Source of the DNA: an uncultured Acidimicrobiales bacterium
GTDB lineage: Bacteria; Actinomycetota; Acidimicrobiia; Acidimicrobiales; Bin134
Length of the DNA stretch: 64,000 bases
Direction of reading: 5' to 3'
NCBI GenBank assembly: GCA_951813325.1
Contig: OX638350.1
Coordinates: forward strand, 2,027,954-2,091,953
The position numbers and the translations under genes were made by a program. The notes under the pieces are model-generated. The model was not told where the DNA came from, ran no database searches, and saw only the letters and a list, made by a program, of their open reading frames with translations. Positions 14,889 through 32,247 of the stretch are shown one piece after another; the first letter of the stretch is position 1, and the number at the start of each line of letters is the position of its first letter.

Positions 14889-16165
14889 GGCATCTCGGCG
14901 TGCCAGTCACGGGTTTCGATGATCGACCGCACATGGTCCAAGAAGGCGGCCACATAGGCCCCGTCGAACGCCCGATGGTCCCAGGCCAGGGCCAGCACTC
15001 CCACCGAGTGGATGGCGATGGCCTCGCCGCCGTCTTCAGAGGTTACGACCACCGGGCGGCGGCGAATCCCGTCGGTGGACAAAATGGCCACCTGGGGCTG
15101 GTTGATGATCGGGAACTGCATCATCGTGCCCCACTGGCCGGGGTTGGTGATGGTGAACGTGCCCCCGGAGATCTCATCGGCATTCAGCTTCTTGGCCCGA
15201 GCCCGCCGCGACAGGTCGGCTACCTCCTCGGCGATCGGCACCAGCCTCTTGCGGTCGGCGTCGACCACCACCGGAGCCAAGAGCCCCTGGAAGTCGAGGT
15301 CCACGGCGATGGCCAGGTTGACGTAGTTGTGGACTACCAACTCGCTGCCGCCCACGGTCGCGTTGATGTGGGGATAGGAGTGGATGGCGTCGCACACCGC
15401 CCGGGCGATGAACGGCAGATACGTGAGGCTGAAGCCGTGATCGGCTTTGAACGCCTCCCGCTGGACCCGGCGCACCTGCTCCACTTGCTCAAAATCCACT
15501 TCCACCGCGGTCAACACATGGGGCGACACCGACTTGGACCGCACCATGTGATCTCCGGTGATGCGGCGGATGTTGCTCAACGGGACGATCGTGTCCCGTC
15601 CGGCTGTTCGTGGCGGGGCAGCCGGTGCGGGCGGACCAGCCGGAGTCGGTGGAGCAGCCGGAGTCGGCAGGCTGGCGGTGGGGCGGTTCTGGGCGATGTG
15701 GACCTCCACATCGGAGCGGGTAATGCGCCCGCCTTTGCCGGTGCCGGTGATCTGCGTGGGGTCAAGCCCGTGCTCGGCGATGAGCCGGCGCACCACCGGC
15801 GACAACACGACGCTCTCGGCCGCGGCGGCTGGGGCGCTCGGCGCCGGTTCGGGAGCAGGCGGAGGCACAGGCGCCGGCTCTGGCGCCGCCTCGACCGGCG
15901 CCGGTGCGGGCGCGGGCTCGACGACAGCCCCGTCCTCGCTCAAGATGGCGATTACCGCTCCGACTTCCACGGTGTCGCCCTCGGCGGCCACGACCTCCAC
16001 CAACACGCCGGTCATGGGCGACGGCACCTCGGAATCCACCTTGTCGGTGGAAACCTCGAAGAGCGGCTCGTCCTCGGCCACTTGGTCCCCTACCCGCTTG
16101 AACCACTGGGTGATGGTCCCCTCCACCACCGTCTCCCCCAGCTGCGGCATCCTGACTTCAGACAT
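14885..16165 (-). CDS. 2-oxoacid dehydrogenase E2 acyltransferase
   Basis: Core of a pyruvate or 2-oxoglutarate dehydrogenase complex. 426 aa: one lipoyl domain (1-76, lipoyl Lys42 in STDKVDSE), a long Ala/Pro linker (about 78-120), a peripheral-subunit-binding domain (about 122-160; SPVVRRLIAEHGLD), and the catalytic domain with DHRAFDG (His397). Only one lipoyl domain is present, whereas actinobacterial PDH E2 often has two or three. The ATG at 16165 is preceded by a strong AGGAGG. That whole start region is repeated three times upstream. The flanking genes are E3 and LipBA. Confidence 0.93.
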   Translation of the reverse strand: MSEVRMPQLGETVVEGTITQWFKRVGDQVAEDEPLFEVSTDKVDSEVPSPMTGVLVEVVAAEGDTVEVGAVIAILSEDGAVVEPAPAPAPVEAAPEPAPVPPPAPEPAPSAPAAAAESVVLSPVVRRLIAEHGLDPTQITGTGKGGRITRSDVEVHIAQNRPTASLPTPAAPPTPAGPPAPAAPPRTAGRDTIVPLSNIRRITGDHMVRSKSVSPHVLTAVEVDFEQVEQVRRVQREAFKADHGFSLTYLPFIARAVCDAIHSYPHINATVGGSELVVHNYVNLAIAVDLDFQGLLAPVVVDADRKRLVPIAEEVADLSRRARAKKLNADEISGGTFTITNPGQWGTMMQFPIINQPQVAILSTDGIRRRPVVVTSEDGGEAIAIHSVGVLALAWDHRAFDGAYVAAFLDHVRSIIETRDWHAEMP

Positions 16166-16271
16166 CGAGCCTCCTCGTAGACCTGTGCCGTCTGACTTCA
16201 GACATCGAGCCTCCTCGTAGACCTGTGCCGTCTGACTTCAGACATCGAGCCTCCTCGTAGACCTGTGCCGT
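16152..16271. repeat. Three perfect copies of a 40-bp tandem repeat over the E2 start
   Basis: Units begin at 16152, 16192 and 16232 with no mismatch. On the minus strand each unit carries AGGAGG and ATGTCTGAAGTC, so the ribosome-binding site, start codon and first four codons of the E2 gene are triplicated. Since 40 is not a multiple of three, the two upstream copies start 15-codon reading frames (16245-16198 and 16205-16158). The TGA of each lies 5 nt into the next ATG unit (ATGTCTGA). Confidence 0.95.
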
Positions 16272-20019: not shown

Positions 20020-22716
20020 GTGGCCGTGAACTTCTCAAACCAGCTGCCGGACACTGATCCGGACGAGACTCGGGAGTGGCTGGACAGCCTCGACGCCGTG
20101 GTCAGCGCCTCCGGCGGACAGCGAGGCCGGTACTTGCTGCGCCAGCTCCTGGACCGGGCCGACGAGCTGGGCATGGGCCTCTCCGGCACGGTGCAGACGC
20201 CGTATGTGAACACCATACCCACCGCCGACCAGCCGTTCTTCCCCGGCGACGAGAACATCGAGCGCCGGATCCGGGCCTTCATCCGGTGGAACGCGGCGAT
20301 GATGGTGGTCAAGGCCAACAAGCGGGCCGACGGCATCGGCGGCCACCTGTCCACCTTCGCCTCGTCCGCCTCCCTCTACGAGGTGGGGTTCAACCACTTC
20401 TTCCGGGGCAAAGAGGACGGGCTGCCCGGTGATGCCATCTACATCCAGGGGCATGCCGCGCCGGGCATCTACGCCCGGGCCTACCTGGAGGGCCGGCTGA
20501 GCGAGGAGCAGCTGGACAATTTCCGGATGGAGATCGGCGGAAGCGGGCTGTCCAGCTACCCCCACCCCCGGCTCATGCCCGACTTCTGGGAGTACCCCAC
20601 GGTGTCGATGGGCCTGGGGGCGATCAACTCCATCTACCAGGCCCGGTTCTACCGCTATCTGCACGACCGCCGTATCGAGGACACCAGCGAGTCGAAGGTG
20701 TGGTGCTTCGTGGGCGACGGCGAGTGCGACGAGCCCGAGACGCTGGGGTCGATCTCGCTGGCCGGCCGGGCCAAGCTGGGCAACCTCATCTGGGTGGTGA
20801 ACTGCAACCTCCAGCGCCTCGACGGCCCGGTGCGGGGCAACGGCAAGGTCATCCAGGAGTTGGAGGGCAACTTCCGGGGCTCGGGCTGGAACGTGATCAA
20901 GGTGATCTGGGGCTCGCGCTGGGACGAGCTGCTGGCCGCCGACGTCGACGGTGTGCTGCTGGAAAAGATGAGGACCACCGTTGACGGCGAGTACCAGCGC
21001 TACGCCACCGAGACCGGCGCCTACATCCGGGAGAACTTCTTCGGGCCCGATCCCCGGCTGCGCAAGATGGTGGCCCATCTGAGCGACCGGGAGCTCGAAG
21101 ACCTGCCCCGCGGCGGCCACGACTATCTGAAGCTGCACGCCGCCTACAAGGCCGCGATCGAGGCCGCCGACCGGCCCACGGTGATCTTGGCCAAGACCAT
21201 CAAGGGCTGGACGCTGGGCGAGGGGCTAGAGGCCCGCAACGCCACCCACCAGATCAAAAAGATGACCACCGCCCAGCTCATGGACCTGCGCTCCCGGCTC
21301 CACCTGGAAGAGGAGATTCCCGCGGAGGCCCTTCAAGACGACGCCAACCCCCCGTACTACAAGCCCCCGCCCGACTCCCCCGAGCACCAATACCTGATGG
21401 CCCGCCGCCGCGAGCTGGACGGGCCGCTGCCCACCCGGGTGGTGAACATCCGCCGGCCCATCAAGCTGCCCGACGACAAGCTGTTCACCGACTACGACGA
21501 GGGGTCCGACGGCCGCCCGGTGTCCACCACCATGGTGTTCACCCAGATGCTGCGCAACATGATGCGAGACGAGGAATTCGGATCCCGGGTGGTGCCCATC
21601 GTCCCCGACGAGGCTCGCACCTTCGGCATGGACTCCCTGTTCCGGGAGTTCAAGATCTATGCCTCTGAGGGCCAGCTCTACGAGCCGGTGGACCATGATC
21701 TGCTGCTGTCCTACGCCGAGGGGCAGGACGGCCAGCTCCTGGAAGAGGGCATCACCGAGGCCGGGTCGCTGGCCTCGTGGACCGCGGCGGCCACCAGCTA
21801 CGCCACCATGGGCGTGCCGATGGTGCCGTTCTACTCCTTCTACTCCATGTTCGGCTTCCAGCGGGTGGGCGACCTGATCTGGTCGGCGGCCGACTCCCGG
21901 GCCCGGGGCTTTTTGATGGGCGCCACCGCGGGGCGCACCACGCTGATGGGCGAGGGGTTGCAGCACCAGGACGGCCACAGCCACCTGCTGGCCTCCACCG
22001 TGCCGGCCTGCTGCGCCTACGACCCGGCGTTCGCCTACGAGCTGGGGGCCATTGTGCGGTCGGGGCTGGACCGGATGTACGGCAACGGCGGCGGGGAGGA
22101 CGTCTTCTATTACATCACCATCTACAACGAGAACTACCGCCAGCCCCGCCGGGCCGATTTCATAAGCGACGAGCACATCCTGTCGGGCCTCTACCAGTGG
22201 AACCACGCGCTGGGCGGCACCGCCCAGCAGGCCTCGATCGTCTTCTCGGGCGCCGCCCACCAGGCCGCCCGCAACGCCCAGGCCGAGCTGGCCGAGCGCT
22301 ACGGGATCGGGGTGGACCTGCTCAGCGCCCCCTCCTTCAAAGCAGCCCGCGAGGAGGCGCTGGAGGTGGAGCGGTGGAACCGTCTGCACCCCGATGAGCA
22401 ACCCCGGGTGCCCATGGTCACCCAGCGGCTCGCCGGAGGCCGCGGCCCGGTGGTGGCGGTCACCGACTACATGGCCCTGGTGCCCGACCAGATCGCCCGC
22501 TGGGTCCCCCGCCGCTTCATCTCGCTGGGCACCGACGGCTTCGGCCGATCCGACACCCGAGAGTCGCTGCGCCGCTTCTTCGAGACCGACGCCCCCAGCG
22601 TGACCTCCGCCGTTTTGAGCGCCCTGGCCGCCGACGGCACCCTCGACGACTCAGTGGCCAAAGACGCCGTCGCCCGCTACAACCTCAACCGCCCCCACTT
22701 CGACCCCACCAGATAG
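20020..22716 (+). CDS. aceE: Pyruvate dehydrogenase E1, homodimeric type
   Basis: Decarboxylates pyruvate with thiamine diphosphate and acetylates the E2 lipoyl group. 898 aa, full length, with a GTG start. The thiamine motif GDGECDEPE (about 232) is followed about 26 residues on by the N in VVNCNLQRLDGPV. Other AceE segments include GHLSTFASSASLYEVGFNHFF, DRKTIKGWTLGEG-like sequence and QHQDGHSH. In Actinobacteria this enzyme works with the nearby E2 and E3 types, encoded 2-6 kb away on the other strand. Confidence 0.95.
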   Translation: MAVNFSNQLPDTDPDETREWLDSLDAVVSASGGQRGRYLLRQLLDRADELGMGLSGTVQTPYVNTIPTADQPFFPGDENIERRIRAFIRWNAAMMVVKANKRADGIGGHLSTFASSASLYEVGFNHFFRGKEDGLPGDAIYIQGHAAPGIYARAYLEGRLSEEQLDNFRMEIGGSGLSSYPHPRLMPDFWEYPTVSMGLGAINSIYQARFYRYLHDRRIEDTSESKVWCFVGDGECDEPETLGSISLAGRAKLGNLIWVVNCNLQRLDGPVRGNGKVIQELEGNFRGSGWNVIKVIWGSRWDELLAADVDGVLLEKMRTTVDGEYQRYATETGAYIRENFFGPDPRLRKMVAHLSDRELEDLPRGGHDYLKLHAAYKAAIEAADRPTVILAKTIKGWTLGEGLEARNATHQIKKMTTAQLMDLRSRLHLEEEIPAEALQDDANPPYYKPPPDSPEHQYLMARRRELDGPLPTRVVNIRRPIKLPDDKLFTDYDEGSDGRPVSTTMVFTQMLRNMMRDEEFGSRVVPIVPDEARTFGMDSLFREFKIYASEGQLYEPVDHDLLLSYAEGQDGQLLEEGITEAGSLASWTAAATSYATMGVPMVPFYSFYSMFGFQRVGDLIWSAADSRARGFLMGATAGRTTLMGEGLQHQDGHSHLLASTVPACCAYDPAFAYELGAIVRSGLDRMYGNGGGEDVFYYITIYNENYRQPRRADFISDEHILSGLYQWNHALGGTAQQASIVFSGAAHQAARNAQAELAERYGIGVDLLSAPSFKAAREEALEVERWNRLHPDEQPRVPMVTQRLAGGRGPVVAVTDYMALVPDQIARWVPRRFISLGTDGFGRSDTRESLRRFFETDAPSVTSAVLSALAADGTLDDSVAKDAVARYNLNRPHFDPTR

Positions 22717-22848
22717 CCGCGATCAATGGAGGCATTGGTTACATCGTGCCCGCCGCCGACGAAGCCAGACCACGACTCGAAGCAGCCGAGCGGCTCGCCG
22801 GGATCCGCCGATGAATGACCATCCCCCACACCGCCCCAAAGCGGCCCC

Positions 22849-23487
22849 GTGACGCGACTCGCCATCGCGGCCGCCACCGCAATCGCCCTGTTGTCAGCCT
22901 GCTCTTCACCCGACCCCGACCCCGCCGACAACCCCACAGCGACGCCACCCGACGCGGCCAACGATCAACCAACCCCACCCGAAGCAACGCCGACGCCGCC
23001 CTCACCCGAAGCCGGAGCAACGCCGACATCTGCGGGTTCACCGCTCGGCGATCCGACCTCAACGCCAATATCCCCCTGGGAACACGCGATGCAACTCATT
23101 GCCGCTATCGAGTCCATCGGCCTCACCGACATCGGTCTAACCAGCACCGGCGGCCCATCCGACGCGGGCGTTTGGGCCAGCACGCCCGACGGCGCCATCA
23201 CCTACCAAATCAGCCTCAATATCTACGGTGTCTTCGGCCCCCTGCCCGAGAGGCTCGAGCCATTCGGAACCTTCGAGCAAACTGGCACAGACACAATCGC
23301 CGGGATCGATCTGAGGATCCTCGACCGCAACGGCTCCGACGTCGCCTGGTTCCAATGCACCCACGATCGAGCGATCGAGGTACGGGCAATCCAGTCGTTC
23401 AGCTCCTCCTCCATCCCCATCGGAACGCTCGACGACGTCAAAGAGCTGGTGCCGGTGCTGTTCTCCGCCCTTGGCTGCACCACATAG
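22849..23487 (+). CDS. Small secreted lipoprotein with Pro/Thr-rich linker
   Basis: 212 aa from a GTG. Signal sequence with lipobox LLSAC (Cys18), then about 60 residues of Pro/Thr/Ala-rich spacer, then a globular domain (about 80-212) containing PWEHAMQLIAAIESIGLTD and four late aromatic/cysteine positions (WFQCTH, LGCTT). The two cysteines may form a disulfide. Family not recognised. It opens the accessory stretch that includes a DsbB-like protein. Confidence 0.7.
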   Translation: MTRLAIAAATAIALLSACSSPDPDPADNPTATPPDAANDQPTPPEATPTPPSPEAGATPTSAGSPLGDPTSTPISPWEHAMQLIAAIESIGLTDIGLTSTGGPSDAGVWASTPDGAITYQISLNIYGVFGPLPERLEPFGTFEQTGTDTIAGIDLRILDRNGSDVAWFQCTHDRAIEVRAIQSFSSSSIPIGTLDDVKELVPVLFSALGCTT

Positions 23488-23784
23488 ACAACAGACGCCC
23501 GCCCCGCGGCAGCCTTTGTTGCGGCCGCCTGTGGTGCCCGCAGCAGCGGGCACCAACACGACCACAGCGATTGGGCTCGTCTATGCCGCCGGCCTCGACG
23601 ACAGCCAACTCCAGCCACCCACCACACCAGCAGACGCCACCACCACCTTGATCACCGCACAACTCACCAGCTTGGAAAACCGCTGGAACCCCGCATAACC
23701 GCCCATCCGCTAGACCCCCCTTATAGAGGAAGTCTCTACGAAAAGGGGGGGGAGCTTCTTGCCTGTTTTGGGTATGCTGATGGT
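23488..23784. other. Intergenic stretch with hairpin and -10 box
   Basis: No convincing gene. A short frame at 23471-23698 has atypical composition and no start signal. The right half holds the hairpin described next and then TATGCT (23773-23778), 6 nt before the dsbB-like GTG, fitting a leaderless -10. Confidence 0.5.
23715..23750. terminator. Large hairpin upstream of the dsbB-like gene
   Basis: CCCCCCTT (23715-23722) pairs with AAGGGGGG (23743-23750). Nested inside is TAGAG-GAAGT-CTCTA. There is no T-run directly after the outer stem on the plus strand, so terminator versus regulatory RNA structure is undecided. It contains homopolymer C and G runs that could slip. Confidence 0.45.
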
Positions 23785-24315
23785 GTGGGTGTTTATGAGG
23801 TTTCAGTTCTTTTTGCTTTGCTGTCTTTGGGGGCTTTGCTTGTGGGTGTCTTGGGTTTGCTAGTTGCTTTGTCTAGCGGTTTTAGGGTTCGGGTTCGGCG
23901 ACTACAGCCAGTGTTGTTGCCCGTGGCTTTGTTGGTGGCGACAGTGGCGACTACCGGAAGCTTGTACTATTCAGAGGTTGCCGGCTACCCGCCTTGCGAG
24001 TTGTGCTGGTACCAGCGGATCTGCATGTACCCGCTTGTCTTGGTCTTGGGGGCAGCGTGGTGGCGGCGCAAGAATTCTAGTGGTTTGTATGCGTTGCCTT
24101 TTGCCGTCGCCGGTCTGGGCGTCTCGGTGTACCATTACCAGCTTCAGTTGTTTCCCGGCCAGAGCTCGTCCCACAACACTGTCGTGTCATGTGCGTTCCA
24201 GTACGTGGATGTCTTCGGGTTTGCCTCTATTCCCTTCATGGCCGGTAGCGGTTTTATCGCCATCACCGGCTTGGTCATCTTATCGTCGCGACTAGCGCGG
24301 CCCGCGCACGGCTGA
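23785..24315 (+). CDS. DsbB-like disulfide bond formation protein
   Basis: 176 aa with four predicted helices (about 8-30, 42-62, 82-92/103-117 and 142-166). The periplasmic/exoplasmic loop has CELCWYQR (Cys71/Cys74), the quinone-linked pair of DsbB. The second loop keeps only Cys136 (VVSCAFQY); the usual partner Cys before it is not visible, so electron transfer to a DsbA partner may differ. No DsbA-like gene is adjacent. Third codon positions are unusually T-rich compared with flanking genes, suggesting acquired DNA. Downstream lipoproteins contain several cysteines. Confidence 0.82.
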   Translation: MGVYEVSVLFALLSLGALLVGVLGLLVALSSGFRVRVRRLQPVLLPVALLVATVATTGSLYYSEVAGYPPCELCWYQRICMYPLVLVLGAAWWRRKNSSGLYALPFAVAGLGVSVYHYQLQLFPGQSSSHNTVVSCAFQYVDVFGFASIPFMAGSGFIAITGLVILSSRLARPAHG

Positions 24316-24422
24316 TCCGCGCCGCTTGTTGTCGCCAACCCGGATCTTTGACAGGAACGGAAGCGCCGGCCCTGCCACCGGCCCTGCGCCGGGTTGGCTT
24401 GTCGCTTTGCCGGATCTGATCC

Positions 24423-25526
24423 TCAAAGCTGTTGTCGCGCCGGAAGGTAGGTATCGACGAGGCCGCCGAACCGGTTGCGGAGCCATTGGGGATCAAGCGA
24501 TGACCCGTTGTCGAGCCCGAGCCCGGCGCGTATGTGGGCTATCGTCACATGCGCGACCAGCGGCCACAATTCGACGGGGTCGGTGTCTTCAGGCAAACAG
24601 CCGCACTCAGCCAGCTCCAAAAACCACCGGCTCACACCGAGCTCGTCGGTTTGGTGCAACAGATCGGCTTGTTGCATCAGACCGCCCTGGTCGCGAATAG
24701 CAACGCACGCGTCGCTGAAGCTGCTGTGCCCAGCACCAGACAGAACCACCAACGCGACCGGCGGGTCCGCCGAGGCCACGAAACTCCGCACGCCCTCTAT
24801 GGGCACGGCCACATCGCCGTCAGCAGCTACTATCAACCCAGGCACGCTCGGGCCGGTGCTTTGCCCATCGAGCACCGGCGCCCAGCCCACCCAAGCCACA
24901 ACCCCTTCCCGCAAAGCAGCCTGCTGAGCGGTCACAGCCCCAGCCGAGTGCCCCAAAGCGGCCAGCGGGCTGTCGGGGCCCACGAGGCCGGCCAACGGGT
25001 CAGTGCAAGCAGCCATGGCCCGCATCAGCTCGACCGCGGCGAACAAATCGTCCACGCTAATAGCAGAGATCAGCTCTGCTGACTTGCGGCCATGGACTGC
25101 TATCCGGTCCCGTTCGTGATGGTCTGGCGCCACCACCGCGAACCCCCACGACGCCAGCCTGATCATGAGCTCAGAGCAATCGGTGGGATACCCGCCAAAG
25201 CCGTGGCTGAACATCACAACCGGAACCGGGCCAGAGACCGGGGCCGGATCGGCAAAAACACCGTCAAAGCCGAACACTCCCACCGGGCCACCAGCGCTAC
25301 CGGCAACCTCGGCAACAGGCGGGCGCATCGCCTCATCAAAAGCGTCCAAACCTGAATACGTCCACGGAACCGCCGCCTCAACCGGGCTGACCTCAGCCGG
25401 ATAATAGATGTAGACAACCCGATCGGCCACATCCCGGCCGACCAGCCGCCGAGTGGCAACCCCAACCGAATGCGCGCCACGCCCGCCATAATCAAAAACC
25501 CCAACCGGCCCACCAGACCCAACCAT
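24423..25526 (-). CDS. Alpha/beta hydrolase, PAF-acetylhydrolase/dienelactone hydrolase-like
   Basis: 367 aa from the ATG at 25526. Oxyanion-loop SHGFGG (107-112), nucleophile LGHSAGA (Ser194), a late Asp in AADGDVAVP and His in GAGHSSF give a complete catalytic triad. The substrate is unknown. The frame stays open to 25706 and reads a hydrophobic Gly/Cys-rich stretch just before Met1 (HLGLLFGLGCFGCG); a non-ATG start there would create a lipoprotein-like signal. This would fit export, but I see no ribosome-binding site that decides it. Coding strand is G/T-rich. Confidence 0.78.
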   Translation of the reverse strand: MVGSGGPVGVFDYGGRGAHSVGVATRRLVGRDVADRVVYIYYPAEVSPVEAAVPWTYSGLDAFDEAMRPPVAEVAGSAGGPVGVFGFDGVFADPAPVSGPVPVVMFSHGFGGYPTDCSELMIRLASWGFAVVAPDHHERDRIAVHGRKSAELISAISVDDLFAAVELMRAMAACTDPLAGLVGPDSPLAALGHSAGAVTAQQAALREGVVAWVGWAPVLDGQSTGPSVPGLIVAADGDVAVPIEGVRSFVASADPPVALVVLSGAGHSSFSDACVAIRDQGGLMQQADLLHQTDELGVSRWFLELAECGCLPEDTDPVELWPLVAHVTIAHIRAGLGLDNGSSLDPQWLRNRFGGLVDTYLPARQQL

Positions 25527-25881
25527 CACCCAAACGCTCCCACAACCAAAACAACCCAAGCCGAACAACAGCCCGAGATGACACCACAGCCACCACCCGT
25601 CCGGCAAACAACCGAACCGCTCCCACAACCCCGACCCAACACAGAGGCGAAAAACACGGAAACCATCACCCCACCAAAATACACCAAAACAGCGGACACC
25701 GCCCAACCAACCGCTGGCGGCGATCCGCTAGAGTTCACCGGGAAACACATCGCAAACAGATCTCGGTCATCCTCACTTGACCCACATAGGAGGGCAAGCT
25801 CTACCAGTGGCCGCGACAAAGACCATTGCAGACGGTTTGGGCTGAGTCCCGCCGGTGGAATTCGCCGTGCTTCTGCGGTTT
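25527..25881. other. Strand-skewed intergenic stretch
   Basis: 355 bp of A/C-rich (plus strand) sequence between the hydrolase and the end of the paralog array. No gene is supported on either strand; the possible N-terminal extension of the hydrolase covers 25527-25706. The skew continues from the hydrolase and changes sharply at the array border near 25886. Confidence 0.5.
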
Positions 25882-26406
25882 CTAAGAAAACTCGACGGCC
25901 AGTTCAGGAATTGGCTTCGCCCTCCTCAACCGCATCGACAGACACAGGGACGGCACTGTCGGGCTCGCCGGCCAGCCCCCAATACCGGCGAGGGTTTCCG
26001 CTCTTTTGGCCAGTCTTTCATCTCGCTGCTCAAGCATCGTTTCCCAACAGCCTGCCCGAAACAACAGAACACGAACTGAGAAGACATTCACGAACGTCAA
26101 CACCCATAAGGCCACGAATACCAGAAAAGAAATCACCCCCGGCGAAAAAGTAAGAAAACCCAAAGCAGCAATCCCAGACAGACTGCCAAATAGCCAAATG
26201 GCCCAGAATCGCCAAGCCGGCTTGAACGGGTCTTCGGTATACACGTCTATGAGCCATTTCTTGACCCGCCCGTAGTGCTCGGGCGGTGTGATCTCCATGG
26301 AAGGAATCATGCAGTACCAGGTTTCGGCGATTATCTGCCGCCAGCTCAGAGCTGCGGCGTAGTCGGCTCGCGATGGAAAGTCTTGCTCCCTGACTTTTTT
26401 CATCAT
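25882..26406 (-). CDS. TPPEHYG-family membrane protein, copy A1
   Basis: 174 aa from ATGATG at 26406. Unrecognised family, named here for its shared motif. Layout: cytosolic N-terminus MMKKVREQDFPSRADYAAAL, ITPPEHYGRVKKWL (about 50-60), two adjacent hydrophobic helices (about 72-92 and 96-116), then LLFRAGCWETMLEQRDERLAKR and a charged tail. Its start overlaps by 4 nt the stop of a leftover lipoprotein C-terminus (C1). Nearly identical to copy A2, differing by about two residues over the shared length. Last gene of the array. Confidence 0.75.
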   Translation of the reverse strand: MMKKVREQDFPSRADYAAALSWRQIIAETWYCMIPSMEITPPEHYGRVKKWLIDVYTEDPFKPAWRFWAIWLFGSLSGIAALGFLTFSPGVISFLVFVALWVLTFVNVFSVRVLLFRAGCWETMLEQRDERLAKRAETLAGIGGWPASPTVPSLCLSMRLRRAKPIPELAVEFS

Positions 26407-26601
26407 CCGACTGTCTCCACGCAATAGTCGATTCTGTGCTCGATGATAGTGGTGTAGCCGCTATCTTCAAATATCTCTGAGACGATTGCTGTTTGCTTTG
26501 TCCACTTCGTGTCGGTGGCGCTCAGCCAGGGGGGCGCCAAGCAGCTTGTGACGCCGGAGATGCTCAACAACACGTCGTCATCTTGGCTGTTGAGCCACGC
26601 G
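26403..26601 (-). pseudogene. C1: orphan C-terminal fragment of the array lipoprotein
   Basis: Encodes 66 residues about 90% identical to the last 66 residues of the full-length protein at 28880-30480 (AWLNSQDDDVLLSISGVTS... to HRIDYCVETVG). Homology stops at 26601. There is no signal sequence or own start beyond a chance ATG at 26609. The stop keeps the same ATGA overlap with the following A gene as in the intact locus. It is a by-product of tandem duplication, though it might be expressed by read-through. Confidence 0.75.
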
Positions 26602-26661
26602 GCACCCACACCGACGGCGTTCGCCGGGGAAGCTCATGCCGTTTCCCTGCGGCAACAATTT

Positions 26662-27090
26662 CTATGACATCTCCTCTTGTCTTCGCGGGCCGACCGACTT
26701 CTGATCCCGCTTCTCCAAAGCCAGCTCCCAACCACCCGCCCGAAACCACATCACCTGCGCCAGTACAGTAACGAGAATAAGCGGAATCAAGCCCACAATC
26801 ACCCCGGGCCTAGCGGCCCACATACCAAAATAGCTCTGGAATGCATAACTCACTACTGTTGCCGGGCCAAGACCCAATGGGATCAGCCACAACCAAGTAC
26901 CACCTATCGTGCCGTCAGGCTTGGCAGCATAGGCAGCGCGTGCAAGCCAGCGTTTGAATGGACCGTAATGCTCAGGTGGTGTCACCCCTCTCATACGAGT
27001 TAAAAATAAAGTACCTCTGCATATCTCCCACCAGTTGAGGACGGCTGCGAACTCGGCCCTCGTGGGATAGTCCTGCTCCTGTTTTCTCAT
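26662..27090 (-). CDS. TPPEHYG-family membrane protein, copy B1
   Basis: 142 aa. N-terminus MRKQEQDYPTRAEFAAVLNWW and C-terminus WFRAGGWELALEKRDQK match B2 closely and match the A proteins at the motifs YPTRAEFAA, TPPEHYGPFKRWL and FRAGxWE. The two-helix core (about 75-120) is diverged from B2. Starts 2 nt after the A2 stop, so it is co-translated. Function unknown; both ends are probably cytosolic. Confidence 0.75.
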   Translation of the reverse strand: MRKQEQDYPTRAEFAAVLNWWEICRGTLFLTRMRGVTPPEHYGPFKRWLARAAYAAKPDGTIGGTWLWLIPLGLGPATVVSYAFQSYFGMWAARPGVIVGLIPLILVTVLAQVMWFRAGGWELALEKRDQKSVGPRRQEEMS

Positions 27091-27092
27091 CG

Positions 27093-27644
27093 CTACCCCA
27101 CCGCTCGATGCCGCACACAATGGGAAAACTCGACGGCTAGCTCAAGAATTGGCTTCGCCCTCCTCAACCGCATCGACAGACACAGGGACGGCACTGTCGG
27201 GCTCGCCAGCCAGCCCCCAATACCGGCGAGGGTTTCCGCTCTTTTGGCCAGCCTTTCATCTCGCTGCTCAAGCATCGTTTCCCAACAGCCTGCCCGAAAC
27301 AACAGAACACGAACTGAGAAGACATTCACGAACGTCAACACCCATAAGGCCACGAATACCAGAAAAGAAATCACCCCCGGCGAAAAAGTAAGAAAACCCA
27401 AAGCAGCAATCCCAGACAGACTGCCAAATAGCCAAATGGCCCAGAATCGCCAAGCCGGCTTGAACGGGTCTTCGGTATACACGTCTATGAGCCATTTCTT
27501 GACCCGCCCGTAGTGCTCGGGCGGTGTGATCTCCATGGAAGGAATCATGCAGTACCAGGTTTCGGCGATTATCTGCCGCCAGCTCAGAGCTGCGGCGTAG
27601 TCGGCTCGCGATGGAAAGTCTTGCTCCCTGACTTTTTTCATCAT
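27093..27644 (-). CDS. TPPEHYG-family membrane protein, copy A2
   Basis: 183 aa, from ATGATG at 27644. Same layout as A1 and nearly identical in sequence, but it runs nine residues longer (…EFSHCVRHRAVG) and ends 2 nt before the B1 start. The start overlaps the stop of the orphan fragment C2. Nucleotide identity with A1 is almost complete over at least 750 bp including non-coding DNA, so the duplication is recent or kept uniform by gene conversion. Confidence 0.75.
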   Translation of the reverse strand: MMKKVREQDFPSRADYAAALSWRQIIAETWYCMIPSMEITPPEHYGRVKKWLIDVYTEDPFKPAWRFWAIWLFGSLSGIAALGFLTFSPGVISFLVFVALWVLTFVNVFSVRVLLFRAGCWETMLEQRDERLAKRAETLAGIGGWLASPTVPSLCLSMRLRRAKPILELAVEFSHCVRHRAVG

Positions 27645-27839
27645 CCGACTGTCTCCACGCAATAGTCGATTCTGTGCTCGATGATAGTGGTGTAGCCGCT
27701 ATCTTCAAATATCTCTGAGACGATTGCTGTTTGCTTTGTCCACTTCGTGTCGGTGGCGCTCAGCCAGGGGGGCGCCAAGCAGCTTGTGACGCCGGAGATG
27801 CTCAACAACACGTCGTCATCTTGGCTGTTGAGCCACGCG
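27641..27839 (-). pseudogene. C2: second orphan C-terminal fragment of the array lipoprotein
   Basis: A copy of C1, displaced by 1238 bp. It encodes the same 66 residues of the lipoprotein tail, lacks the upstream signal, FN3-like and glycine-rich parts, and ends in a 4-nt overlap with the A2 start. It lies between the B2 stop and A2. Confidence 0.75.
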
Positions 27840-27899
27840 GCACCCACACCGACGGCGTTCGCCGGGGAAGCTCATGCCGTTTCCCTGCGGCAACAATTT

Positions 27900-28328
27900 C
27901 TATGACATCTCCTCTTGTCTTCGCGGGCCGACCGACTTCTGATCCCGCTTCTTTAAAACCTGCTCCCAACCACCCGCCCGAAACCACATCACCTGCGCGG
28001 TAATCGAGATGGCCAGAAGCGGGATCCCACCCACAACAGCGCCGGGCATTGCCGCCCAAATGCCGAGAAATCTGCCACAAGCGACACCTGCTGGTACTAT
28101 TGTTGCAAGACCCAGTGGAATAGCCCACAGATGAGTGCCGCTGGGTTTACCATCCGGCTTAAAGGGACACCCGGCGCGCACAAGCAAGCGTTTGAATGGA
28201 CCGTAATGCTCAGGTGGTGTCACCCCCCTCAAGCCAGTGAAAACAAAAGTAGCTTTAGATATCTCCCACCAGTTAAAAGCGGCGGCGAACTCGGCCCTCG
28301 TGGGATAGTCCTGCTCCTGTTTTCTCAT
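27900..28328 (-). CDS. TPPEHYG-family membrane protein, copy B2
   Basis: 142 aa, same length as B1. The first about 20 and last about 30 residues are almost identical to B1, while the middle (about 23-115), including both helices, differs at many positions (for example FNWWEISKATFVF against LNWWEICRGTLFL). This pattern of conserved ends and a variable membrane core is what diversifying selection or recombination would leave. It follows A3 by 51 bp. Confidence 0.75.
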   Translation of the reverse strand: MRKQEQDYPTRAEFAAAFNWWEISKATFVFTGLRGVTPPEHYGPFKRLLVRAGCPFKPDGKPSGTHLWAIPLGLATIVPAGVACGRFLGIWAAMPGAVVGGIPLLAISITAQVMWFRAGGWEQVLKKRDQKSVGPRRQEEMS

Positions 28329-28361
28329 CGCTGTCCCACCGCTCAATGCTACACACAATGG

Positions 28362-29078
28362 GAAAACTCGACGGCGGGTTCAGGAATTGGCTTCGCCCTC
28401 CTCAACCGCATCGACAGACACAGGGACGGCATTGTCGGGTTCGCCGGCCAGCCCCCCAATACCGGCGAGGGTTTCCGCTCTTTTGGCCAGCCTTTCATCT
28501 CGCTGCTCAAGCATCGTTTCCCAACAGCCTGCCCGAAACAACAGAACACGAAGTGAGAAGACATTCACGAACGTCAACACCCATAAGGCCACAAATACCA
28601 GAAAAGAGATCACCCCTGGCGAAAGAACAAGAAAACCAAAAGCAGCAAGCACAGATAGACTGCCGAATAGACAAATGGTCCAGAATCGCCAAGCCGGCTT
28701 GAACGGGTCTTCGGTAAACACGTCTATGAGCCATTTCTTGACCCGCCCGTAGTGCTCGGGCGGTGTGATCTCCGTCGAAGGAATCATGCAGTACCAGGTT
28801 TCGGCGATTATCTGCCGCCAGCTCAGAGCTGCGGCGTAGTCGGCTCGCGATGGAAAGTCTTGCTCCCTGACTTTTTTCATCATCCAACTGTCTCCACACA
28901 ATGGTCGATCTCGTGCTCGATGATAGTGGTGTAGCCGCTATCTTCAAATGTCTCTGAGACGATTGCTGTTTCCTTTGTCCACTTCGTGTCGGTGGCGCTC
29001 AGCCAGGGGGGCGCCAAGCAGCTTGTGACGCCGGAGATGCTCAACAACACGTCGTCATCTTGGTTGTTGAGCCACGCG
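28362..29078. repeat. Partial unit R3 at the head of the array
   Basis: Carries A3 and the true C-terminal codons of the full-length lipoprotein. Homology to R1/R2 ends at 29078 (R1 26601), where the intact gene continues upstream. This makes R3 the likely parental copy. Confidence 0.85.
28380..28883 (-). CDS. TPPEHYG-family membrane protein, copy A3 (frameshifted C-terminus)
   Basis: 167 aa; the ATG at 28883 overlaps the lipoprotein stop (ATGA). N-terminal 140 residues match A1/A2 apart from scattered changes in the helices (SLSVLAAFGFLVLSPG against SLSGIAALGFLTFSPG). A run of six C at 28452-28457 replaces five in A1/A2 and shifts the frame, so the tail reads LAGEPDNAVPVSVDAVEEG instead of the A1/A2 tail. 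With five C it would end at 28349, close to the B2 start. Confidence 0.72.
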   Translation of the reverse strand: MMKKVREQDFPSRADYAAALSWRQIIAETWYCMIPSTEITPPEHYGRVKKWLIDVFTEDPFKPAWRFWTICLFGSLSVLAAFGFLVLSPGVISFLVFVALWVLTFVNVFSLRVLLFRAGCWETMLEQRDERLAKRAETLAGIGGLAGEPDNAVPVSVDAVEEGEANS

Positions 29079-30480
29079 ACGCCCATAGCGGCGGCGACCC
29101 CCAAAGCAGCCCCGACCACAGTCCCCACGAGCCCCAGAGATGACCCTACAGTCGCGCCGGTTCGTACCATCACATACGCAGACACGCTAACCGCGCCGGT
29201 GACTGTCGCACCGACGATGATGCTGACTCCATTTTCTTCTAGTGCGTTGTCCCACCATGTGTCGCCGGCTTCGGGCAGCGGCTGGTGCCATGGCAGGTCG
29301 GGGATGTCGGATTGGTCGGAGCAAGTGCCGTCGGTTGTGTGGTCTCCGCAGTGACGGTGGGCCTCAACGCTGGCGTTGCCGGTGGCTGTCTCGTGCAGAT
29401 GCGGCTCGTCGGCTCCGTGGGTCCGGCCCGTGCCGTGCTGGAAGTACTCGAGCACCTTGTCGTCGTCGATCTCCACATCCAAGTGCTCAGTCCAATAGAT
29501 GGTGCAAGTGCGGGTCCAGCCAGTGTCAGCCGCGTTTCTGACGGTAGGCGAGCAATTGTCGCTGCCTAGCTCAGGGTCTATGCTTTCGCTCAAGACATAG
29601 CGTTCCAGGCCGGGATTCACCCATATGTGGGCACAGACGCCCAGCATGCATCCCGACTCCCATTCTCCATTGGGACTTGTCCAGTCGGGATCATCGGGAT
29701 TGTCGGGGTCGAGGGGGTCGCAGTCCACGGACGCGGTTGGGGAGGGGTCGCCCCAGTCACCAGCGGTGTGGGCTTGGACCTGGAAGGCGTAGGTTTGGCC
29801 TTCTTGTCTTTGGGCGTGGACCCGGCGTTGGCTGCCGGTTCCGCCGAGGCCGGTGTAGATGATGCCGATGGTCTGGTAGTTGTCGGCTCCGGCCATGTGG
29901 TCCCATTCCAGGGTGACCACGCCGTGGCTGTTGCACGACGCGGACACGCTCTGGGGAACCCACCTCGGACAGTACTCGGAGGTCTCAGCCCACGCGGAGA
30001 ACTCGGTGTTCCCTGCGACTACGACGTCGGACCGCTCCCTTATCCTGATCTCGTGGGTGTGGTGGGGGGTCGGATTATTGTACGTGTAGGCTGCCGGCGG
30101 ATTCGCAGGAGCATATTCAGCGTTTGCAACATGCTCGCCGTTGATCTCCACTTCGAAGAGTCTCAGCGGCACATAGATGCCGGGGATCGGGTCAGTGTTC
30201 CAAGTGATAACCAGCTCTCCGCTGACAGCGCAATCAGCTTGCAAACCAGTGGGCGCGGGCAACGCTGCCGGCACCGGGGTCGCTATCGGGGGGGGGGGGG
30301 GGGTGGCGGAGGGGGTGGCGGGGGCGCCGATGTCGGGGTGGGCGCCGATGTCGGGGTGGGCGCCGATGTCGGGGTGGGCGTCGGGCTCGGCGTTCCGCAA
30401 TCGAAGAGGCAGCCTGAGGCGAAGACAGCGCCGACAACGAAAATGGCCATCGCGACCAGGCCGCGGCGGTGCTTGTTCAT
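28880..30480 (-). CDS. Array lipoprotein, out of frame at a poly-C tract (candidate phase-variable gene)
   Basis: Begins MNKHRRGLVAMAIFVVG with lipobox FASGC (Cys24), then PTPTSA repeats and polyproline encoded by a C-run. With the 16 C seen, this frame stops at 30283 (TAG). The downstream frame is open from above the tract to 28880. Seventeen or 14 C would join them into one protein (533 aa with 17). Downstream parts: two FN3-like beta domains (about 77-165 and 175-260), a Cys/His-rich region, a long Gly-rich hydrophobic segment (about 415-470; GSSLGLVGTVVGAALGV), and a 66-residue tail that is also found as orphan copies C1/C2. It is surface-anchored by prediction; function unknown. It overlaps A3 by 4 nt. 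A sequencing error in the tract must be excluded. Confidence 0.7.
30288..30303. repeat. Homopolymer run of 16 G (poly-C in the coding strand)
   Basis: Lies inside the lipoprotein reading frame, between the PTPTSA repeats and the FN3-like domains. Runs this long are prone to slipped-strand mispairing. Gain of one or loss of two bases restores the frame; the present length leaves the gene off. Confidence 0.9.
30324..30377. repeat. Three perfect 18-bp tandem repeats
   Basis: Units at 30324, 30342 and 30360. In the lipoprotein frame (minus strand) they encode PTPTSA repeats, a flexible stalk after the lipobox. Being a multiple of three, copy changes alter stalk length without shifting frame. Confidence 0.85.
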
Positions 30481-30545
30481 CCCAGCACCCGGGGGGCGAA
30501 GCCCGCGGCAACACTGGCAACCGCAACGACCAGACGGCGTTTCAT
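30477..30545 (-). CDS. 22-aa leader peptide before the array lipoprotein
   Basis: ATG at 30545 reads MKRRLVVAVASVAAGFAPRVLG and its TGA overlaps the lipoprotein ATG (ATGA). The lipoprotein ATG has only a weak ribosome-binding site of its own, so initiation may depend on this short frame. The peptide looks like half of a signal sequence and could also be a decayed earlier start. Confidence 0.4.
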   Translation of the reverse strand: MKRRLVVAVASVAAGFAPRVLG

Positions 30546-30553
30546 GGTCTATC

Positions 30554-30582
30554 TCACTACTTTTCTTTTTTGGCCTTGTCAA
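30554..30582 (-). promoter_or_regulatory. Predicted promoter of the lipoprotein/paralog array
   Basis: On the minus strand TTGACA (30582-30577) is followed after 17 nt by TAGTGA (30559-30554). The -35 is a perfect consensus, the -10 is weak. It sits about 10 bp upstream of the leader peptide ATG, consistent with a short 5' leader. No other promoter of comparable quality is seen between the array genes. Confidence 0.5.
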
Positions 30583-31047
30583 GCCCTTGCCGAAAAAACC
30601 CGACCCCACACACCCCGCCCCTCACCGCGCCACCCGTCAAAACCCTCCAGATGGCCAGACGAATCGCCGCCCGAAACAACACCCAGGCGGCGTTTGCCGG
30701 CGCGGCGGCTGAGGCTGACGTGGCCCGTCGGATCACCGTCGACGCAGGAGCGGCCAACCAGGAAGCCTGTGCCGGCGCCCGCACCGTCTGCGTGCAGTCG
30801 GGCCCCGGCCCCTGCTGGACTCGAACGGCTCCACCGACTGGGCAGGCTTGTCTTCGAGCAGACACAGGCCGTGCCAGCCCATGTGAGCACCCCGGCCCGG
30901 CGATTCGGCCGCGACCTGCGAGATTGCATTGAGGCCAGCCGTCTGGCCGAAGGCTGGCACCGGGTGATCGGCGCCGCTGGTGAGAACAGCGCCAACGCCA
31001 GGAAACGCCTCATACCAGTTTGAGGACAGCGCCAACGCCAAAAAGCG
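30583..31047. other. Gene-poor stretch with decayed coding fragments
   Basis: No intact gene. A plus-strand frame from ATG 30651 starts plausibly (MARRIAARNNTQAAFAG) but then runs into Cys/Pro-rich noise. A second plus frame to 31023 ends KRLIPV. An imperfect direct repeat (CAGCGCCAACGCCA at about 30988 and 31027) lies just before the amidohydrolase stop. Probably remnants at an island junction. Confidence 0.4.
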
Positions 31048-32247
31048 TCAGGCCGGTTGGAGCTGGTTCAACCCGGTGGTGTTGTCGAGCAGGATCTTCT
31101 TTTTGGCAGCGTCGTCGAAGCCCTTGTCCTTGAGCTCCACCAGGTAGTCCAGGGGCTGGGGCATGCCCTCGATGTGGGGCCAGTCGCTGCCGAAGATCAC
31201 CCGGTCGGCGCCCATGTAGTGGACCACCTCGGCCACGTCGTCCTCCCAGAAGGGGTTGATCCACACGTGCTGGCGGAACAGCTCGGCGGGATCCTCGCCG
31301 AACCACCCGATGTTCTTCTTGGCGGCCTGGCCCAGCTTGCGGAACAGGTCGCCCAGGAACTGCGACCCGTTCTCCACCGAGGCCACCCGAAGGTTGGCGA
31401 ACCGCTCGAAGAGCTTCTCCAGCGCCAGGGTGATCAGGTAGTCGTAGGCGGCCCGCTCGATGTTGTAGGCCTTGATGCTGGGCTTGTACTTGCGCTGCTT
31501 GGCCATCCCCGACGAGGCGAATCCGTCCACGTCATAGCCCTGGGTGGTGTAGCCGCTGTCTCCGGCGTGGACCACCGCGCAGATGCCGGCCTCGTTGACC
31601 CGGGCCCAGAACGGGTCGAAGTGCTCGTCGGCCGGCGACTTGAACCCATCAGCAGTCCATACCGCGGCAGGGCGCATCACGATGGTGCGGGCGCCCTTGT
31701 CCAAAACCCACTCCAGCTCCTGGCAGGCCCAGTCCACGTCGCCCAAAGCGATGTAGGGAGCGGCAAAGATGGTGTCGCGGTAGGCGAAGCCCCACTGCTC
31801 GTCCAGCCAGCGGTTGAACCCGCCGAACAGGGCGCACACTGCTTCGATGTCTTCTTTGACGAGCTCCTCGTAGAGCACGCCCAGCGTGGGGAACAGCCAC
31901 ACCGACTGGAGCCCCTGCTCGGCCACCTTGTCAACCCGGGCATCCCGGTCGTCCACGTAGAAGCGGGGCAGCCGCTCCCGCTTGCTCAGCATGTCAGCCG
32001 GATTCCGCCCCTCGGGGTTGCCCCGGAAGTAGTCGTGCAAGGCGCCGGGCAAAGCGATCGGATCCCAGGTGGGGTTTACCACGGCGTGGCTGATGGCGCC
32101 GCCCACCAGGTGGTAGCGGCGGCCGTTCACCTCGGCCCACTGCACGCAGCGGGGCTGCATGGCCGGGTCCACGTGACGGGTGAAGGCGTCCACCGCCTCG
32201 TAGTAGTGGTTGTCGCAGTCGAAGGGGATGTAACCAAGCTCGTCCAC
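31048..32247 (-). CDS. Amidohydrolase-2 family metal-dependent hydrolase
   Basis: 399 aa TIM-barrel hydrolase/decarboxylase-like protein. N-terminal metal motif DCDNHYYE, central His in AVVHAGDSG, and the late FGSDWPHIEGM Asp/His pair fit the amidohydrolase-2 (ACMSD-like) family common in mycobacteria and other Actinobacteria. The natural substrate is unknown, probably an aromatic or cyclic acid. No signal peptide. It stands between the array and the TA cluster. Confidence 0.85.
   Translation of the reverse strand: MDELGYIPFDCDNHYYEAVDAFTRHVDPAMQPRCVQWAEVNGRRYHLVGGAISHAVVNPTWDPIALPGALHDYFRGNPEGRNPADMLSKRERLPRFYVDDRDARVDKVAEQGLQSVWLFPTLGVLYEELVKEDIEAVCALFGGFNRWLDEQWGFAYRDTIFAAPYIALGDVDWACQELEWVLDKGARTIVMRPAAVWTADGFKSPADEHFDPFWARVNEAGICAVVHAGDSGYTTQGYDVDGFASSGMAKQRKYKPSIKAYNIERAAYDYLITLALEKLFERFANLRVASVENGSQFLGDLFRKLGQAAKKNIGWFGEDPAELFRQHVWINPFWEDDVAEVVHYMGADRVIFGSDWPHIEGMPQPLDYLVELKDKGFDDAAKKKILLDNTTGLNQLQPA

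Follow-up and report, generated by a model that had tools for sequence, protein, structure and literature searches.

What is a string of five small membrane-protein genes doing directly behind the gene of a surface lipoprotein, and what does it mean that some of its members are nearly identical and others sharply different? The question is raised by a locus in a 64-kb stretch of DNA (the window; 64,000 nucleotides) from an uncultured Acidimicrobiales bacterium, in which the genes A1, B1, A2, B2 and A3, each encoding a protein with two predicted transmembrane (2-TM) helices, follow the gene of an FN3-type lipoprotein. As read from the sequence, the meaningful unit is the pair of lipoprotein tail and small protein, which recurs across six species. 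We lean, by a little, towards regarding the array as the immunity genes of an effector locus that is polymorphic, surface-displayed and membrane-acting, in which A would be the cognate immunity protein and B a spare one.

The tandem array and its repeat unit

All five open reading frames (ORFs) that a preliminary description had placed at 25882-28883, running in the same direction, are present on the minus strand. Together with the lipoprotein gene, they are arranged as follows (all on the minus strand).

28880-30480: FN3-type surface lipoprotein gene (the carrier), with a predicted ASGC lipobox signal peptide, Pro/Thr-rich repeats, an FN3 region, a pre-tail domain and a variable tail
29252-29677: conserved pre-tail domain (SPNG...GWTRTC...DLPWH..LP..D..W), retained when tails swap
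28880-29251: variable C-terminal tail, a predicted Gly/Ala-rich hydrophobic hairpin with glycine-zipper motifs, then a tail of ~45 aa with two conserved Cys
28380-28883: A3, 167 aa, predicted 2-TM partner and proposed cognate immunity protein, its ATG overlapping the lipoprotein stop (ATGA)
27900-28328: B2, a 142-aa paralogue without a matching tail in the same genome, proposed orphan immunity protein
27641-27847: displaced tail remnant 2, the lipoprotein's last 68 codons without a proper start, followed by A2
27093-27644: A2, same as A1 over 140 aa, C-terminus altered
26662-27090: B1, with the same ends as B2 and a diverged middle
26403-26609: displaced tail remnant 1, without a proper start, the same as remnant 2 over the 61 codons compared
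25882-26406: A1, the third A copy
25886-29096: full extent of the tandem repeat (period 1238), as tail piece-A-B, tail piece-A-B, tail piece-A

Self-comparison of the sequence gave the repeat period of 1238 bp, and the repeat unit consists of the lipoprotein 3' end (~70 codons), gene A and gene B, in the order tail end-A3-B2, tail end-A2-B1, tail end-A1. The array that had been described as five paralogues is thus indeed a tandem one, but the ORFs are not independent paralogues; they are three near-identical A and two B copies, generated by duplication of the 1238-bp unit. The overlapping or tight spacing also holds for part of the array. The lipoprotein and A3 overlap by four bases (ATGA) and the gaps A2-B1 and A3-B2 measure 2 and 51 bp, whereas B2-A2 and B1-A1 are separated by 255 bp each, and both of these gaps contain a start-less copy of the lipoprotein 3' end.

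The copies are not equally similar along the unit. A1 and A2 are the same over 140 aa, with A3 at 93%; from unit 2 to unit 1 the tail fragment and A hardly change at all, whereas units 3 and 2 differ in them by up to ~10% per 60-bp block. B1 and B2 agree completely at either end, while their middle falls to 19 of 45 identical bases (B1-B2 dS 0.61 overall), and the rest of the tandem unit is mostly 90-100% identical. Given this sharp contrast within a single repeat, the middle of B was replaced or diversified separately. Close to the 3' ends of the A genes there is a G-run (G6 in A3, G5 in A2 and A1), and it is because of this difference that the C-termini of A1 and A2 deviate from that of A3, whose acidic C-terminal tail resembles that of a homologue in a congeneric genome, G014. 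A promoter-like site (TTGAAG-16-TATCAT) was also seen within the tail 3' end at window positions 28920, 27681 and 26443 (minus strand), 36 bases upstream of every A start; the three are copies of one repeat, and 1.5 would be expected by chance. Each tail remnant could therefore supply a promoter for the A gene behind it, which we give as a lead only.

The motifs that had been proposed as shared, EQD(F/Y)P(S/T)RA(D/E), TPPEHYG and FRAGxWE, are invariant in A1, A2, A3, B1 and B2. TPPEHYG is no hallmark of the wider A/B family: G014 has TPPERYG instead, and the motif is missing from G005, G013 and G017; what is kept in all eight aligned proteins is an N-terminal EQDxxxR...A(A)...W..I and a near-C-terminal FR(A/V)G(G/C)WE. 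Profile matches reached 1e-53 to 1e-70. The nonsynonymous and synonymous divergences (dN/dS) were 0.035/0.064 for A3-A2, 0.22/0.61 for B1-B2, 0.32/0.93 for A3 against the G014 homologue and 0.036/0.081 for a tail fragment against its parent. Since dN/dS is below one and the profiles match, A and B can be taken as real coding genes, and the frames of A, B and the tail fragments look under coding constraint.

The two-helix membrane core put forward earlier is supported by the predicted topology and by the AlphaFold model of A3 (predicted local distance difference test, pLDDT, 70), with helices at 62-86 and 91-142, consistent with two-helix topology. All the small partner proteins considered here are predicted to be 2-TM, with basic N- and C-terminal ends and 0-1 Lys/Arg in the loop, and so would be oriented N-in/C-in by the positive-inside rule; the Kyte-Doolittle hydrophobicity of their helices is mostly about 1.7-2.8.

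Consistent with the initial impression that A and B belong to no known family, they had no match in Pfam, NCBIfam, PADLOC, PHROGs, PDB sequences, or phage or plasmid records, and no fold match was found. Four profile libraries gave nothing above cut-off; the matches to MtrD (1e-4), CobD and 8xMP came from a single member each, covered hydrophobic stretches only and were below gathering scores. A phage or plasmid origin was also set aside, as there are no relatives in IMG/VR, phage or plasmid records. Outside the genus, a query with the pre-tail domain against a sample of 397 genomes from the order found no relatives, nor did the A/B profile in samples of 395 genomes (class) and 396 genomes (phylum), and A/B thus appears confined to one Acidimicrobiia genus. 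We take this host group to be marine and probably sponge-associated, the sponge link coming from the names of metagenome-assembled genomes and general knowledge.

Tail and partner pairs in the genus

Twenty-two genomes of the genus were compared (G000 being the window genome). A-like genes occur in five of them (G000, G005, G013, G014 and G017), always directly behind an FN3 surface-protein gene, its 3' fragment or another A-like gene. The neighbourhoods of all surface-protein relatives revealed ten pairs of a surface protein and a small 2-TM protein, with four tail types in six species (given as genome:contig).

Alpha pairs: window, G014:C71, G005:C38, G013:C26, G017:C108
Beta pairs: G014:C71 (second locus on the contig), G017:C505 (frameshift and internal stop)
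Gamma pair: G014:C69
Delta pairs: G020:C284, G005:C232

Each tail type, alpha to delta, goes with a partner type that is peculiar to it and unrelated in sequence to the others, but all partners are predicted 2-TM hairpins. No significant profile similarity was found among alpha, beta and delta tails, or among partners of different types; alpha and gamma, by contrast, can be aligned as homologues through the pre-tail domain and the tail (hhalign probability 99.9). The layout of the tails is a common one, with a hydrophobic segment followed by about 45 residues between two Cys, the last Cys being 5-10 residues from the end. In all five alpha pairs the partner ATG overlaps the carrier stop or comes at most 6 bases after it; the beta partner in G014 likewise overlaps, and the delta partners begin within about 50 bases. 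Only one full alpha-tail surface protein is present per genome, and a partner remnant was found in G017. On a G014 contig (L032, 1-4426) there is a tandem array of differing surface-protein tails and differing 2-TM partners, in the order beta tail, beta partner (1305-1571), another 2-TM gene (1701-2018), truncated alpha carrier and A-like gene, after which a further FN3 protein starts.

The glycine-zipper motif (G/A/S)xxxGxxxG is present in all six tails tested, and its enrichment over shuffled sequences is significant in three (P 0.0005, 0.009 and 0.04; 0.10-0.26 in the others). Gamma and delta tails are of modest hydrophobicity (about 1.2-1.4 on the Kyte-Doolittle scale). At the other end of the carriers, the surface proteins of G013, G005 and G017 have a signal peptide without an obvious lipobox, and N-terminal sequences upstream of FN3 (L050, L051, L052) contain short repeats (VRVAPFT..., VFNYE...) whose number varies among species, some of them masked as N in G017. 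In the window, a C16 tract (30288-30303, minus strand), the sole homopolymer of nine or more bases in the 64 kb, splits the signal-peptide frame from the body frame of the lipoprotein in the assembly; it is possibly a phase-variation switch or a homopolymer error of the assembly.

The comparison of G013 with G005 shows how such pairs may be exchanged. Both share the locus and the neighbours on both sides, and the stalk DNA is mostly 90-99% identical (about 92% just before the tail). Identity then drops to about 40-50% across ~740 bp, from right after PDL(P/A)WHxxLPxxDDNFW to the 3' part of the partner gene, and returns to about 90-97%. At the protein level, identity is 83% in the pre-tail domain, 41% in the tail and 48% in the partner, and dS goes from 0.33 (pre-tail) to saturation (tail) and 1.39 (partner); between G013 and G017, which have the same tail class, no such jump is seen (0.68, 0.93 and 0.61). 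As a dS jump is not expected from protein selection alone, the tail and partner of these two genomes most likely represent an allele replacement by recombination, beyond fast evolution.

The locus itself is, by its gene context, an accessory island, with the following boundaries.

22717-31047: 8.3-kb insert between two convergent housekeeping genes
20020-22716: 2-oxoacid dehydrogenase E1-like gene, flanking the insert
31048-32247: amidohydrolase-like gene, flanking the insert

In at least 12 congeners the flanking genes are convergent neighbours, 23-106 bp apart, with no insert (e.g., 3002980/3003010 in G007 and 322846/322907 in G019), whereas in the window genome the insert contains the complete system and, in addition, genes for a hydrolase and a DsbB-like protein. 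No terminal repeats of the 8.3-kb island were seen. A 1.96-kb segment (23734-25696, with the alpha/beta hydrolase and DsbB-like genes) is duplicated at about 663-665 kb of G000:C1 (L046) with 99.7% identity. Each copy adjoins an FN3 surface-protein gene, the carrier near 665 kb being a degenerate sister. Other tandem repeats of the window are a perfect 40-bp x 3 repeat (16152-16271) and a near-perfect 38-bp x 3 repeat (1029-1141).

The preliminary description had noticed neither the tail remnants nor the exchange of cassettes, nor that the locus is an island, and had proposed that amplification beside the surface protein meant that dose or diversity matters. Diversity does seem to matter, because B1/B2 and their relatives vary sharply in the middle. 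The case for dose was not borne out, given that the copies stem from a tandem duplication dragging along lipoprotein 3' pieces, and dose amplification as main explanation was rejected in favour of cassette duplication.

Proposed mechanism and known systems

In the mechanism that we propose, the lipoprotein would be the effector carrier. It would combine a lipid-anchored FN3 stalk with the conserved pre-tail domain and a C-terminal tail, and it is the tail's glycine-rich hydrophobic hairpin that would enter the membrane of a nearby cell and depolarise it. A, as the cognate immunity protein with its two TM helices, would act against the tail inside the membrane and block it, and B1/B2 would be orphan immunity proteins against other tails. 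New tail and partner cassettes would arrive through homologous recombination at the pre-tail domain and at the conserved partner-gene ends, and old ones would be pushed downstream as tail fragment plus partner, the fragments being footprints of earlier exchange or duplication. What can be read from the sequence is the pairing and coupling of tail and partner, the replacement of cassettes, the tandem duplication, the mosaic structure of the B genes and the accessory island. That the tail is toxic and depolarises membranes, that its partner confers immunity and that delivery is by contact is our inference.

As in polymorphic toxins, there is a conserved carrier with an exchangeable C-terminal region and a putatively cognate downstream gene, followed by displaced C-terminal fragments and orphan partner genes (B1/B2, G014 array). 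In favour of the proposed effector and immunity locus are, moreover, the ten pairs of four types in six species, with unrelated partners of the same 2-TM topology; the abrupt tail and partner replacement in G013/G005 and the B1/B2 mosaic in an otherwise near-identical unit; the displaced tail fragments before A2 and A1, the G014 array and the G017 partner remnant; the stop/start overlap or near-contact in all five alpha pairs; and the island context. The same genetics is documented for TspA/TsaI, TipC, contact-dependent inhibition (CDI) ionophores and EsxX/ExiCD.

A close parallel is TspA/TsaI of Staphylococcus aureus, a type VII secreted depolarising toxin whose C-terminus acts on the membrane, with an array of DUF443 membrane immunity proteins (PMC7456083, PMC9484751), in which a toxin 3' fragment stands between two of 11 membrane immunity genes (PMC9484751, PMC7456083). 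Here too, non-identical membrane partner genes lie in a string directly downstream, with carrier 3' fragments in between. Unlike TsaI, A and B are not DUF443 (no Pfam match) and have two predicted TM helices instead of five. Their carrier differs from a type VII substrate in being a signal-peptide-bearing FN3 lipoprotein, and the two systems are not connected by any family match. TipC genes have conserved ends, a variable middle and a record of recombining (PMC9484751). CDI ionophores are a hyper-diverse membrane-acting tail class whose cognate immunity proteins are about 30% identical (PMC11630599), and, as in CdiA-CT/CdiI, the tail sits on the tip of a large surface protein and is swapped as a unit with its partner (PMC11630599). 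No two-partner secretion domain or VENN motif was found in the carrier, unlike in CDI, and no family match for the tail. The actinobacterial host presumably also differs from CDI hosts in having no classical outer membrane.

SitA/SitI of myxobacteria combines a lipoprotein toxin carrier of variable C-terminus with a downstream immunity gene, its alleles deciding kin compatibility (PMC5562445). The window carrier is similar in its ASGC lipobox, variable tail and downstream partner gene, but neither the outer-membrane exchange nor the nuclease tails of SitA are seen here, and delivery by such exchange is unlikely; SitA, SitB and SitI gave no match in the general Pfam, NCBIfam and PADLOC scans, no search aimed at SitA having been made. 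Among type VII toxins, glycine zippers are known from EsxX/ExiCD, with a membrane immunity pair that also occurs as orphan clusters (PMC12744356), and from TelE, with membrane-integrated TipE immunity proteins (PMC10434224). The tails may share the glycine-zipper hydrophobic C-terminus with EsxX and TelE, with enrichment significant in some tails only, whereas the LXG carrier and DUF5085 proteins of these systems were not found. By analogy, the system would work like TspA/TsaI, CDI ionophores, EsxX and SitA and belong to none of these families; as no defining sequence feature of any of them was found, we file it in none.

Alternative explanations and significance

Several observations weigh against an effector and immunity locus. 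Pfam, NCBIfam and PADLOC scans of carrier and tail found no known toxin domain or delivery module, including LXG, WXG, Rhs, PAAR and filamentous haemagglutinin/VENN. In this assembly the carrier does not read in frame, clear enrichment of glycine zippers is limited to some tails (shuffle P 0.0005 to 0.26), and the structure model of the tail (pLDDT 36) is unusable and gives no structural support. One architecture is common to all tails, whereas classical polymorphic systems swap unrelated toxin folds. A genome-wide search, made for the alpha family only, found no orphan partners far from surface-protein genes, and the conserved N- and C-termini of the partners could mean a shared intracellular function. 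Finally, the hydrophobic segment of every tail and the 2-TM topology of every partner also fit the main rival explanation, in which the tail serves to anchor a surface fibre or adhesin in the cytoplasmic membrane and the 2-TM protein is dedicated to assembling or anchoring it, both co-diversifying because TM helices must match. We regard this as unlikely, albeit a serious contender. The tight translational coupling and the single tail architecture agree with it, and so does the missing lipobox in G013, G005 and G017, whose surface proteins could have the tail as their only anchor. What it does not predict is the abrupt replacement of the membrane-buried part with the exposed part unchanged, orphan B copies without a surface protein of their own, or retained tail fragments; in addition, gamma and delta tails are modestly hydrophobic in comparison with the partner helices, and a lipid anchor signal is present in the window carrier itself.

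Matched polymorphism of tail and partner, with variable partner middles and conserved ends, could also come from non-lethal self-recognition or signalling, where tail and 2-TM protein are a polymorphic ligand/receptor pair reporting kin identity and the conserved A/B ends talk to a common cytoplasmic partner. Proteus IdsD/IdsE is a polymorphic, ligand/receptor-like kin-recognition pair. Recognition systems with matched variable regions exist (PMC6682164). Considering that there is only one full alpha-tail surface protein per genome, that the B orphans lack, in their own genome, a tail that they could recognise, and that no regulator is adjacent, we find this improbable. Marginally less probable still is a plain tandem duplication of an accessory gene with little functional meaning, i.e., a decaying island with debris tails and a broken carrier frame. 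The C16 frame break, the start-less tail pieces, the altered C-termini of A1 and A2 and the degenerate second copy at 665 kb would all suit decay, which is opposed by the dN/dS below one for A, B and tail remnants, by the pair architecture kept in six species and by the maintained diversity of B1/B2.

Returning to the effector and immunity reading, it is conceivable, though we would stop short of calling it probable, that these FN3 proteins represent a new class of kin discrimination or contact-dependent antagonism among uncultured marine Acidimicrobiia. Their tails would share one hyper-diverse architecture that inserts into membranes and spreads as cassettes, each would be neutralised by a sequence-unrelated, topologically identical 2-TM protein, and no known secretion or toxin module would be involved. 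If right, the effector and immunity reading would add a new carrier, a new tail architecture and several immunity families beyond current database models, in uncultured marine (probably sponge-associated) actinobacteria, for which antagonism genes have hardly been described so far. The opposite conservation of exposed stalk and membrane tail in four types would make cognate-pair specificity directly testable in a laboratory host, and the tandem array with its tail remnants would be a clear snapshot of how an immunity array grows.

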